Notes under the pieces: generated by a model
What the model was told of the DNA's origin: nothing
The model's database searches: none
The model's input: only the letters and a program-made list of their open reading frames with translations
Shown here: positions 9,026 through 26,586 of the stretch, piece after piece
Numbering within the stretch: position 1 is the stretch's first letter
Layout: the number at the start of each line of letters is the position of its first letter
IMG/VR virus record: IMGVR_UViG_3300035689_000068
Coordinates: 1-27,648 of that record
From: a virus
Length of the DNA stretch: 27,648 nucleotides
Strand: one strand, 5' to 3'
Program-made: the position numbers and the translations under genes

Positions 9026-9520
9026 ATGACACAAACATTCGTCTACGCTATCTATTGTCCAAATAAAAACGAGGTAAAAATTGGTTATGCAACTGACCCA
9101 TTAAAAAGATTAGCTTCCTTGCAAACAGGCACAACTGACAGACTTGATGTACTACTAACTTTCGTAGGAGGAATTGTAGAAGAAAAGAAATTGCACGACA
9201 AATTGAGTAATTATAGGATAGGTGGAGAATGGTTCTCTTACAACAAAAAGGTAAGGGAAGAGCTATTAGACGCGGTTTCCAATATGTACCCAGTTTCTGA
9301 CAAAGAAGATTTACTGAAAGTCTTTATAGAAAATTATCTCGAAACCTACTTTTCTTGCTACAAGACTAAAAAACGCACTAGGATATACCTGAAAGAGTTG
9401 AAAGTAGTTTGTAAAGATTTTCCAGAAGCTGACCAAAAAACCCTGAAGGCAACTATGCTAGATTTAGGTTACGAACAAAAAACTGATGCTTCCAGAGTTG
9501 TATTTTTTGAAAAGATATAG
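9026..9520 (+). CDS. GIY-YIG/T5orf172-like protein with C-terminal winged-helix-like module
   Basis: A 164-residue protein. Residues 5-75 match the T5orf172/MUG113 branch of the GIY-YIG superfamily: VYAIY (6-10) for the first strand, VKIGYA (17-22) for the second, DPLKRLASLQTG with the conserved Arg, then EEKKLHDKL and GEWF (67-70). In this superfamily such proteins are either nucleases or DNA-binding modules, and many phage copies are homing-type or regulatory. The C-terminal ~60 residues form a separate module similar by eye to the end of the preceding protein. It starts one base after the upstream stop, so the two genes are probably co-transcribed. A DNA-cleaving or DNA-binding function is likely; the exact role is unknown. 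Confidence 0.8.
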   Translation: MTQTFVYAIYCPNKNEVKIGYATDPLKRLASLQTGTTDRLDVLLTFVGGIVEEKKLHDKLSNYRIGGEWFSYNKKVREELLDAVSNMYPVSDKEDLLKVFIENYLETYFSCYKTKKRTRIYLKELKVVCKDFPEADQKTLKATMLDLGYEQKTDASRVVFFEKI

Positions 9521-9861: not shown

Positions 9862-10671
9862 ATGCAACATTTTGTCTCGTTTCACTTGTCTCAAGCCAAT
9901 TTCATTCGCCTCAGTGACAAGAACATCAATGCCGCTAGAGAATTGAGCGTTAAGAATTTAAATAACCAAAGCAATCCCAATAGCTTCACTCAACTCAGTG
10001 GACTAAAACGCATTGAGGGGCTTGAGCGACATGACGCTATTCAACACACCCCTATAACTAAACAGCACTACAAGACTTTAGTAGGAAAAGACCCGAACCA
10101 GTATTTTCCAGAAAGTAGTTTGGCTAGAACTGGAGGCATGAGTACAACACCAATGCCCTTAGCTCAGAACGTACCAGAAAAAGTAAATACAGCTACAGAA
10201 CTAATGACAAATGTGATTGGCGCACCTAGAGGAAGAGATAGGGCAAACGTAAGGTACACCGATTCCTTACCCTCTAATGTTACTCCAGATGTGGTGCATA
10301 GTTACATTAAAAAAAAGAATACTGAGCCTGAAAGACTTGCAGCTATGTTGCCTTTAGGGTATGAAATTGAAAATGTCTCTAATCAACAATTTAGAGAAGA
10401 TTACATAAAAAGAATGCGAGGGTCTAAAGATAGATTACTTCCTGAAAAACCAAAGTTACCAACTAAACCTTCTTTGTACGATAAATATCAGGCTAGAAAC
10501 ACCTTTACAGATAATTACCCAAGATACGGTAATGTAAAATATGACGAGTGGGAAGCTAGAAAATTAACAGGGGGGTTGGAAGCAGGGCTTACCCCACTAC
10601 CACCAAAAACCGAAAATAAACTACGTCAAATCTCTAACAGAAGATACGAAGAACAAAGGAACGCCCGATGA
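9862..10671 (+). CDS. Hypothetical protein, basic, Pro/Asn-rich
   Basis: A 269-residue protein that begins MQHFVSFHLSQANF, with an amphipathic aromatic N-terminus, followed by long polar, low-hydrophobicity stretches rich in Pro, Asn, Lys and Arg. It looks partly disordered. No signal peptide, membrane helix or catalytic motif is visible. It begins two bases after the upstream stop and ends in an ATGA overlap with the next gene. The N-terminal motif resembles an internal Met region of the kinase-like protein downstream (MQHFADF at residue 193). A virion-internal or DNA-associated role would fit, but this is inference. Confidence 0.7.
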   Translation: MQHFVSFHLSQANFIRLSDKNINAARELSVKNLNNQSNPNSFTQLSGLKRIEGLERHDAIQHTPITKQHYKTLVGKDPNQYFPESSLARTGGMSTTPMPLAQNVPEKVNTATELMTNVIGAPRGRDRANVRYTDSLPSNVTPDVVHSYIKKKNTEPERLAAMLPLGYEIENVSNQQFREDYIKRMRGSKDRLLPEKPKLPTKPSLYDKYQARNTFTDNYPRYGNVKYDEWEARKLTGGLEAGLTPLPPKTENKLRQISNRRYEEQRNAR

Positions 10672-10874
10672 CTACCGAAGACACCACAGCAACCAAGAAA
10701 CCTTCGCCCAAGCTACCTAGCATCTTTCCCCCTAAACTGGAAGAACTAAAAGGCATGACTGGCAAAAAAGCTGACAAAAAAATGCTAAAACAAGTCGCCA
10801 AACCCCCACTAATGCCAAAAGCGTTGCAGAAAAAGAATGCCAGCGCTGAGTTACTTTCCAGAATTAAGGGCTAG
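10668..10874 (+). CDS. Small Lys/Pro-rich protein
   Basis: A 68-residue, highly basic protein (about a quarter Lys) with many Pro. Its start overlaps the previous stop as ATGA, and its stop overlaps the next GTG start by one base (TAGTG), so it is embedded in a tightly coupled gene string. Such compositions are seen in small DNA-condensing or scaffold-like phage proteins. No domain is recognised. Confidence 0.7.
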   Translation: MTTEDTTATKKPSPKLPSIFPPKLEELKGMTGKKADKKMLKQVAKPPLMPKALQKKNASAELLSRIKG

Positions 10875-11233
10875 TGGCAAGCAAAAGAACTAAAGTACCT
10901 CTTGAGAAGGTAACTAGAGAAAAAATTGCGAGTTTCATGAGGGCAAGCGGATTTGTTGTCCAGCAGGAGGTGGTCGTGCCTACTGGTCGCATCGATATTT
11001 TGGTTAAGGAATATAAACCAAACGGAGAAATCGTTAACTACCTAATCGAGTGTAAGCGTTACGGAGACAGCAATTCAATCAAAAATGCAATAGGTCAGTT
11101 AAGAACGTACTCGACCCACTACGGCAAAAACACTAAGTTGTATATATGCACCAGCGACCCCACACCACTAAACAAGGAAGCTCAAAAAGTACTTGCTTGT
11201 AACCCTGATATTCTTTATAAAGTGTTTACATAA
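10874..11233 (+). CDS. PD-(D/E)XK superfamily nuclease, small
   Basis: A 119-residue protein with a GTG start at 10874 inside the upstream TAG stop; TTAAGGG just upstream gives a ribosome binding site. The core motifs of the PD-(D/E)XK fold are visible: the N-terminal helix with Glu (residues 15-20), GRIDILV with Asp41, IECKR with Glu59 and Lys61, and QLRTYS with Gln75 and Tyr79. The protein is little more than the catalytic core, similar in size to archaeal Holliday-junction resolvase-like or restriction-like nucleases. It may resolve branched DNA, repair DNA, or attack host DNA; the sequence does not decide between these. Neighbouring genes are unknown or kinase-like. Confidence 0.85.
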   Translation: MASKRTKVPLEKVTREKIASFMRASGFVVQQEVVVPTGRIDILVKEYKPNGEIVNYLIECKRYGDSNSIKNAIGQLRTYSTHYGKNTKLYICTSDPTPLNKEAQKVLACNPDILYKVFT

Positions 11234-11234
11234 T

Positions 11235-12266
11235 ATGCATACTATTAACTTCGCCAAAATTCGTAACGCCAAGACTCTTCTCCTTACACCAGACAAACGT
11301 GTGCTGCACTTCCCTGCCACAAACAAAGTACGCATCGATAATATTCTCCCAGATGAACTTCATTATCGCTCGGCAGCCCAACGCAGTAACAAAAAAGAAT
11401 ATGCTAACGCCAACACAGCAGCCTTAGAGACGGGTTTAGTGCCTCCAGTACAAAACTACCGTGAACGAGGTAACATGACCTCCTACACGCAAGATTACGC
11501 AGGTAGGCGCTTACCTAATAAACTTGAAGGGATAAAACCAAAAGAACAATATAAGCTGGGTAGTCAAGTAGGTCGTATACAAAATCGTTTACGTGAACAA
11601 GATTTAGGGCATACCGATATTCATGAGGGTAATATAGTTAGAAGCAAGCCGAACGGTAGAGAGGTGAAGCTCATTGACAATGCATCAATTGAAAACATTA
11701 AAGACAAATACGATGAGCAACTGCTAAAAAACTTGCATCATGAGAATGGTTTAGGCACACCATTTATGACAGGTTACAATAGTAGAATCAATTTTACACA
11801 GGAAAAACAAATGCAACACTTTGCCGACTTTGGATTAGGTCGACAAGCATTGAACTATATTGGTCAACATCCAGTAAGAACAGCCGCAGGAGCGACGGCA
11901 TTGGCAGGAGCAGTTAAAGGTTCTGGAGTATTCGAGACAGAAGAAGAAAAGGCGAATACCTCTGGGCTTGGTCGTTTAGGGAAAATAATTAACAACTCTG
12001 CATTAGGAGCAGCAATTGGCACTGGAGGTATGGTAATCAATCAAAAAGCCTCTCAGCTAGGTGCTGATGCTGCTCGAAAATATAAACGTAAAGCTACTCC
12101 TGACCCTTATGCCAATCCCGCAAGACAAGCTGGACAGGCTCCTCAGTCAAGTAGCATAGATGATGATACTTCACCTACTTTTCAAAGGGAGAATAACCGT
12201 ATTTGGGAAACACCTAAAAAGTCTAATGGTAATGATTGGTTTGACGTACCTAACGGTTGGGACTAA
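11235..12266 (+). CDS. Kinase-like protein with hydrophobic C-terminal segments
   Basis: A 343-residue protein. I chose the ATG at 11235, one base after the previous stop; a longer frame would overlap the nuclease gene. Residues 50-150 follow the order of a protein-kinase/aminoglycoside-phosphotransferase C-lobe: an alpha-C-like helix (EYANANTAALETGLVPPV, 55-72), a hinge-like segment (YTQDYAGRRL, 84-93), a helix, then the catalytic loop H126-x-D128-x-x-x-x-N133 (HTDIHEGN) and a DFG-like IDN with Asp148. No glycine-rich loop or clear ATP-binding Lys is visible, so it could be a divergent kinase or a pseudokinase. Two weakly hydrophobic Gly/Ala-rich stretches (about 211-230 and 255-268) and a disordered Pro/Ser tail follow. 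A second start may exist at Met193. Confidence 0.75.
   Translation: MHTINFAKIRNAKTLLLTPDKRVLHFPATNKVRIDNILPDELHYRSAAQRSNKKEYANANTAALETGLVPPVQNYRERGNMTSYTQDYAGRRLPNKLEGIKPKEQYKLGSQVGRIQNRLREQDLGHTDIHEGNIVRSKPNGREVKLIDNASIENIKDKYDEQLLKNLHHENGLGTPFMTGYNSRINFTQEKQMQHFADFGLGRQALNYIGQHPVRTAAGATALAGAVKGSGVFETEEEKANTSGLGRLGKIINNSALGAAIGTGGMVINQKASQLGADAARKYKRKATPDPYANPARQAGQAPQSSSIDDDTSPTFQRENNRIWETPKKSNGNDWFDVPNGWD
11800..11813 (+). promoter_or_regulatory. Possible internal translation start in kinase-like gene
   Basis: An AGGA-containing site (around 11800-11803) lies 7 nt before an in-frame ATG at 11811 (Met193). Use of it would give a separate 151-residue C-terminal protein with the hydrophobic segments but without the kinase-like core. 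Its first residues (MQHFADF) resemble the N-terminus of the protein at 9862. Confidence 0.3.
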
Positions 12267-25878: not shown

Positions 25879-25990
25879 CCTTGGTATTGCATTGTTGCTT
25901 CTATTAATCTTTCCACCTGACCCTGATAGAATAAATTTAGCGCGATTATTTTACGCTTTAATATATCTCTTTCAACACCTTCACCCATGA
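25853..25990 (+). CDS. Tiny membrane protein, possible holin-like
   Basis: A 45-residue protein from a GTG at 25853 with an AAGG-containing site about 9 nt upstream. It has two hydrophobic segments, residues 6-20 (IALSLGIALLLLLIF) and 30-40, joined by PPDPDR, which suggests a helical hairpin in the membrane. It starts inside the end of the head morphogenesis gene, and its TGA overlaps the next ATG as ATGA (25987-25990), a junction typical of coupled genes. Size and topology fit a small class II holin or another membrane peptide. The evidence is the coupling and hydrophobicity only. Confidence 0.5.
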   Translation: MSKSSIALSLGIALLLLLIFPPDPDRINLARLFYALIYLFQHLHP

Positions 25991-26586
25991 CCTCCAAACC
26001 GCAACAACGAGCTGAATTTATATTTGAGGGACTTCAAGCTTTTCAACACGTAGACATTCCTTCAGCTTTTGATGCAGCTCGAAATGCAGTATATGGCTAT
26101 CACCCTAGTTTCGGTGACATGAGTGCGCTTCCTATAGCCATGAACGCCCCTAATTTCCCTAAGTGGGCAAAAACAGCCAAAGATACTTATAAAGCTAATG
26201 CTGCGGATAAGCTTCCGACTAGAGTTGCTAAAGCTGCACTTGAAACAGGTGGACATGTTCTACGTGATAGTGAAGGTTGGGGAAATCCAATTGCAGATAG
26301 TATGTCAGCAACTTATAGAAATGTTCGAGGAGTTTATGACAAGCAAAAAGAACTTGGGCGCAAACTAACCCCTAGAGAAGTATTACAAGAATCAGGTAAA
26401 GCTGCATTACAAACAGCTAAGAAGCAAATAATCACAAGACCTAAAATGTATTTTTATGATGCACCAAAAATGGGTGTAGATGCCCTCAAAGGTGCAGTCC
26501 CTAAAATCGGTGAGGCTATCTCTAAGTTACGCAGACCTAAACTTGCTCCGATGTCCATTTCCTTTAAGCATTTTAAGAATTTTTAG
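25987..26586 (+). CDS. Hypothetical basic late protein
   Basis: A 199-residue basic protein with many Ala and Lys helices (AKTAKDTYKANAADKLPTRV, KAALQTAKKQIITRPK) and an amphipathic, aromatic C-terminus (MSISFKHFKNF). There is no signal peptide, membrane helix or catalytic motif. Its position between the head morphogenesis gene and the protease is where internal head proteins or scaffold-related proteins are found, and its composition would suit a DNA-associated internal protein. The start overlaps the end of the small membrane ORF as ATGA; the 3' end overlaps the convergent XRE-like gene by 14 nt. Confidence 0.7.
   Translation: MTSKPQQRAEFIFEGLQAFQHVDIPSAFDAARNAVYGYHPSFGDMSALPIAMNAPNFPKWAKTAKDTYKANAADKLPTRVAKAALETGGHVLRDSEGWGNPIADSMSATYRNVRGVYDKQKELGRKLTPREVLQESGKAALQTAKKQIITRPKMYFYDAPKMGVDALKGAVPKIGEAISKLRRPKLAPMSISFKHFKNF

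Follow-up and report, generated by a model that had tools for sequence, protein, structure and literature searches.

The window, meaning the whole 27,648-base virus record analyzed here, is from a lineage of cyanobacterial viruses of fresh water that includes the Pseudanabaena phages PA-SR01 and Pam2. It was placed there because the gene described below has syntenic homologues in both phages and the TerL of the window is 79–81% identical to theirs. We focused on an open reading frame (ORF) on the + strand that begins with an ATG at position 11235, ends with a stop codon at 12264–12266, and encodes 343 amino acids. The protein is divided by a seven-residue peptide, MQHFADF (residues 193–199; 11811..11831, + strand), which was identified by pattern matches and marks a fusion junction. 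Ahead of this peptide, here called the tag, is a kinase-like domain (residues 1–192; 11235..11810, + strand), assigned from an 11-member alignment, hmmscan, hhalign, and the presence or absence of the domain among relatives. Behind it is a glycine/alanine-rich, glycine-zipper-like carrier tail with a disordered end (11832..12263, + strand), recognized from stand-alone relatives, tail-only genes, and glycine-zipper matches on relatives.

An untagged PD-(D/E)XK (Mrr-like) nuclease is encoded at 10874..11233 on the + strand (Pfam PDDEXK_9, 5e-8; Mrr_cat, 3e-7). Since it is untagged and adjoins the fused form as well as the tail-only form of the protein described below, we treat it as a mere neighbor, apparently an unremarkable syntenic gene. 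Close to where the locus begins, positions 9026–9520 encode a GIY-YIG/T5orf172-type protein (MUG113, E 5e-11) that is annotated in Pam2 too.

Homologues with the same architecture, including the internal tag, occupy the same locus in Pam2 (gp189, UQS95069.1) and PA-SR01 (QIW88440.1), with an overall identity of 63–65% to the window ORF. The PA-SR01 copy is deposited as “hypothetical” and the Pam2 copy under the name “casein kinase I-like protein 1,” which anticipates the kinase call; the deposited annotation names neither the tag nor the modular tail. Other ORFs of the Pam2 record (ON014754; our L013 and L014) are deposited as botulinum neurotoxin, neurexin, and receptor phosphatase, which look like remote-similarity labeling artifacts on phage structural proteins. 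Together with the window copy and eight sequences added from IMG/VR searches, the two phage proteins make up a family of 11. A wider IMG/VR scan with the pattern GHxDIHxGN recognized no further member, and a search through 84,980 bacterial and archaeal genomes, by peptide patterns only, found no homologue.

The catalytic core of the kinase-like domain

A first-pass annotation of this DNA had read kinase-type residues H126, D128, N133, and D148, in that order, from the ORF, and we find them at those positions. The sequence reads GHTDIHEGN (H126, D128, H130, and N133), followed by LIDN (D148). The alignment and hhalign place the catalytic loop, H126-T-D128-I-H-E-G-N133, at 11610..11633 and D148-N149, in which a metal-binding aspartate replaces DFG, at 11676..11681, both on the + strand. 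In the alignment, H126, D128, H130, G132, N133, D148, and N149 are invariant in 11/11 homologues. The annotation had made its kinase call depend on homologues keeping the four residues it named, and every one of the 11 keeps them all. The loop of the two most divergent members, L054 and L055, reads HTDLHEGN and HTDLHSGN, which is still a canonical kinase loop, with substitutions confined to positions where kinases tolerate change. The pattern H-x-D-[ILVM]-H-x-G-N-x(8-25)-[ILV]-D has one match each in the gene sets of the window, PA-SR01, and Pam2, and zero in 200 residue shuffles of each set.

Other parts of a kinase are less evident. No glycine-rich loop is seen in the kinase-like domain, and K31, which is an arginine in Pam2, and R33, which is invariant, are candidates for the role of the beta-3 lysine. 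For the single sequence, the first-pass annotation had already pointed out that this loop and a clear ATP-binding lysine are missing. E55 (11397..11399, + strand) is invariant in the 11 members and may serve as the alpha-C glutamate, which would make it the candidate partner of either residue. The DFG position reads IDN-A/D, and the ~45 residues between IDN and the tag are too few for a normal C-lobe. The dN/dS of residues 1–192 is 0.07–0.23, from which we conclude that the domain is under purifying selection and is maintained.

Searches with single sequences (hmmscan) matched Pfam ABC1 in 7/11 members (best E 0.0025), RIO1 in one (E 5.8e-4), and Pkinase in one (0.14), and five of the 11 matched the PHROG family “kinase.” All Pfam kinase-clan matches are under the curated cut-offs, the best for ABC1 reaching 17.4 bits against a cut-off of 22.9. 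We then compared the family with a profile of 28 UbiB/ABC1 proteins assembled for this purpose. Here, hhalign aligned the catalytic residues at a score of 41 (P 5e-5, probability 67%), compared with a maximum of 23 in 40 column shuffles, 15 for the reversed profile, and 14 with the core masked. Since the score is far above these controls, we consider homology between the catalytic core and kinases very probable. Significant kinase similarity covers only ~40 residues, the catalytic core, and we detected none to ABC1 beyond it, as masking the core drops the hhalign score to background. The atypical kinases ABC1/UbiB (ADCK; PF03109) and RIO (PF01163) are the best Pfam matches, and their HxDxHxGN loop and later aspartate align with those of the phage domain. 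Unlike them, the phage domain is ~190 residues long, is fused to a carrier tail, and scores under the curated cut-offs. The first-pass annotation had called the protein a “divergent phage kinase or pseudokinase.” This reading is supported in part: the ABC1, RIO1, PHROG, and hhalign matches and the conserved residues speak for a kinase-like catalytic core; judged by sequence, the domain outside the core is too divergent to place.

Structure prediction added little. AlphaFold2 produced no usable model for the full protein (5 sequences) or for residues 1–199 (9 sequences), with mean pLDDT of 34 and 40, respectively. The low-confidence secondary structure follows kinase order (three strands, a long helix, a second long helix, and short strands) and was excluded from the evidence. 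Foldseek with the low-confidence model of residues 1–199 returned no meaningful match. A PDB sequence search aligned the catalytic residues with those of SalKC (E 0.56 and 0.82), and the rest were apparent chance matches. We also considered the T7 gp0.7-type kinases as a parent family, and no profile pointed to them.

The departures from a typical kinase could mean that the domain is a pseudokinase, which keeps the core of the fold and binds a partner instead of phosphorylating it. The missing glycine-rich loop, the uncertain lysine, the replaced glycine of DFG, and the short C-terminal part would suit such a protein. However, pseudokinases often lose the catalytic-loop H, D, and N and the metal-binding D, all of which are invariant in the 11 homologues, and we regard this explanation as possible but doubtful. 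It is markedly less probable that the domain is no kinase at all, with HxDxHxGN and LIDN having arisen by chance in an unrelated fold. The lack of a confident model and the limited stretch of similarity would allow this, but several members independently matched two kinase-clan Pfam families and the kinase PHROG, and the score of the profile comparison greatly exceeds that of the shuffled controls.

The tag and its carrier

The peptide MxHFxxF is found at the N-terminus, at the C-terminus, or at a domain junction in about ten otherwise unrelated proteins per genome. The form [QKR]HFxxF occurs nine times in PA-SR01 against 0.28 expected and nine times in Pam2 against 0.17 expected, mostly at the initiator methionine. 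A DNA pattern for M[QKE]HFxxF, ATGVARCAYTTYNNNNNNTTY, has 53 matches in 11 records, and the reversed DNA pattern has none. All 24 Met-initial copies in the gene sets of the window, PA-SR01, and Pam2 have His3 and Phe4, with Phe or Tyr at position 7, although the selection pattern itself demanded H, F, and F/Y. An IMG/VR scan with MQHFA[DN]F returned mainly the PA-SR01/Pam2 lineage and a few apparent chance matches.

In the window, a protein of unassigned function encoded at 9862..10671 (+ strand) starts with MQHFVSF (9862–9882), and the protein encoded at 25987..26586 (+ strand) ends in KHFKNF (26566–26583). By synteny with PA-SR01, the latter lies directly upstream of the head genes, and its PA-SR01 homologue has the same C-terminal SFKHFKNF; Pam2 gp46 terminates in FQHFANF. 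The third base of the tag His and Phe codons varies. This variation and the C-terminal copies argue for selection on the peptide rather than on a DNA element at the start codon. We also looked for Shine-Dalgarno sequences with an internal start at M193 in mind and saw no clear one at most tagged genes of the lineage.

The proteins that bear the tag are mutually unrelated and include a glycine-zipper protein, an SNF2-type helicase, a DUF5754 protein, and the kinase-like protein. Several of the tagged genes lie in the tail-gene region of Pam2 and PA-SR01, and others lie by the terminase, in the head-gene region, or alone in the replication region. One tagged protein of 121 amino acids (L010:4111-4476) matches DUF5754 (9e-12) and a PHROG labeled “minor head protein and DNA pilot” (3e-6). 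A JAB/JAMM metallopeptidase-like motif, HTHP...S..D, was noticed by eye (Prok-JAB, E 0.12) in tagged Pam2 gp37 (L013:37932-38654), in L075, and in L201:1126-1944. In two records (L012:9597-10001 and L015:4813-5460), a tagged + strand gene sits within the oppositely oriented replication region and ends in PQKPQPEQEPPY or a near variant. Several proteins have a further short element, A[NSD]F or DFG, a few residues past the tag, e.g., MQHFVSFHLSQANF, which is a hint in the sequences of a two-part signal.

The first-pass annotation had described the rear of the kinase-like protein as hydrophobic and disordered regions fused behind the catalytic core. Such a part is present, but it also stands alone elsewhere, starting exactly at the tag methionine. 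Two stand-alone relatives begin there, one with 49% identity over 98 amino acids to the window tail (L105) and one with 50% identity to the tail of L009 (L108). We then used a TerL-based search, which is independent of the kinase gene, and obtained nine contigs with sufficient upstream sequence. Six carry the fusion, and three (L204, L205, and L207) carry at the same locus a tail-only gene that starts at the tag methionine; L204 and L205 share ORF coordinates and may be one phage. With the window, PA-SR01, and Pam2 included, the kinase-like domain is found in 9/12 genomes. The tail-only protein of L207 is 89% identical to the fused tail of L009 over all 153 amino acids, and in L207 DNA, no more than about 30 bases separate the nuclease stop from the tagged ATG. 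From these sequences, the kinase-like domain is a unit that a tagged glycine-zipper carrier has either acquired by fusion or lost.

The tails also appear to move. Synonymous divergence (dS) of domain versus tail is 1.77 versus 0.47 for L002 and PA-SR01 and 2.34 versus 0.42 for L054 and L055, but 0.61 versus 1.75 for L008 and Pam2. Because domain and tail disagree in this way between pairs, it is probable that tails were swapped at the tag or close to it. In the SNF2-type helicase of PA-SR01 (L010:25081-26877, - strand), the tag is likewise internal, just ahead of the helicase part. L078 has a comparable N-terminal extension that continues into a tagged glycine-zipper-like protein, while its helicase is separate with a tag of its own. 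The extension of the helicase contains twin-arginine-like sequences, MNRRNFLKNLG and SRRQFLKNAA (Pfam TAT_signal, E 0.001).

A proposed role in virion loading

Short loading peptides on phage proteins have precedents. The T4 capsid-targeting peptide has an M-x-x-aromatic-x-x-F spacing, similar to MxHFxxF, which we take as a lead. In T4, the capsid-targeting sequence of the IPs and Alt is likewise a short N-terminal peptide on otherwise unrelated proteins (PMC3012670, PMC5694885), and the T-even internal proteins are diverse anti-defense proteins with only this sequence in common (PMC3012670). The tag described here differs from it in sequence and also occurs internally and C-terminally. In phage P1, an N-terminal peptide loads the large anti-restriction protein DarB into the head, and its first 30 residues are enough to bring a reporter into the capsid (PMC9024508); in the present lineage, it is an SNF2-type helicase that is tagged. 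No consensus emerged from the N-termini of the P1 Dar proteins (PMC9024508), whereas about ten proteins have one in common here. Our literature search found no description of a common loading peptide of this kind.

Given a peptide common to diverse proteins, its tolerance at either end or at a junction, and the T4 and P1 precedents, we propose that the tag directs virion loading. The protein consists of two parts, a highly divergent and probably minimal kinase-like domain (residues 1–192) and a carrier (residues 193–343). The carrier, composed of the tag MxHFxxF and a glycine-zipper-like tail, is probably membrane- or pore-associated and is of a kind that the phages also make alone. The tag would act as a virion (prohead) sorting signal for about ten unrelated proteins per phage, with the kinase-like domain as optional cargo packaged in the head and ejected with the DNA into the host. 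At the start of infection, the delivered domain would modify host proteins, by phosphorylation or otherwise, most plausibly those of defense or transcription. By analogy with T7-type kinases, which act on defense proteins by phosphorylation (PMC12345140), modification of host proteins is the likely action of the delivered domain. The first-pass annotation had guessed that the protein is possibly delivered with the DNA, and the shared tag and the tail-only genes, neither of which it had seen, lend this guess indirect support. Of this proposal, the sequences show the conserved catalytic core, the family of tagged proteins, the carriers that stand alone, a kinase-like domain present or missing right in front of the tag methionine, and the exchange of tails; we infer packaging, ejection, enzymatic activity, and target. 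Taken whole, with a divergent kinase-like domain on a tagged carrier that is sorted to the virion, injected, and active on host proteins, we hold the proposal to be slightly favored. The odds are about even that MxHFxxF, at either terminus or at a domain junction, is one shared loading tag for an entire group of effectors that the virion delivers, among them kinase-like, SNF2-type helicase, possible JAB-like peptidase, glycine-zipper, and other proteins, and that cargo domains come and go through fusion precisely at this peptide.

The several tagged genes among tail genes in Pam2 and PA-SR01, together with the glycine-zipper-like tail and the glycine-zipper matches in tagged proteins, make sorting to a tail or membrane site, instead of the head, a live alternative. 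The tail would then help to form a channel for DNA delivery, and the kinase-like domain would be an add-on with a structural or anchoring role. We consider this unlikely, as other tagged genes neighbor the terminase, lie in the region of the head genes, or sit singly in the replication region, and the conserved catalytic residues and low dN/dS speak against a purely structural role. The start MxHFxxF may also be no sorting signal at all, but an element of the translation start or of the mRNA, or what is left of a recent duplication of one gene, in keeping with the position of most copies at the start codon and with the clear paralogy of some tagged genes (the GYVKQANKQLKRL group). The third-base variation, the C-terminal and internal copies, and the unrelated sequences past the tag make this explanation quite improbable.

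The joining of a phage kinase domain to a second functional domain recalls T7 gp0.7 and JSS1_004, a T7-type phage kinase that phosphorylates host defense proteins (PMC12345140). JSS1_004 is an early-expressed gene and has no description as virion cargo, unlike the role proposed here, and a limited literature search turned up no description of a packaged phage kinase. As far as we searched, the tag, the carrier, and the presence or absence of a domain at the tag are not described.

If the proposed role is true, capsid-targeting peptides would be known not only from T4 and P1 but also from long-tailed cyanophages, there with a searchable consensus, and the kinase-like domain would become a candidate for a protein-modifying enzyme that the virion delivers. 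To our knowledge, few host-takeover or anti-defense proteins are known for cyanobacteria. As a loading signal, the tag would pick out in one step which unlabeled phage genes are cargo and would supply a short list of candidates for such proteins.
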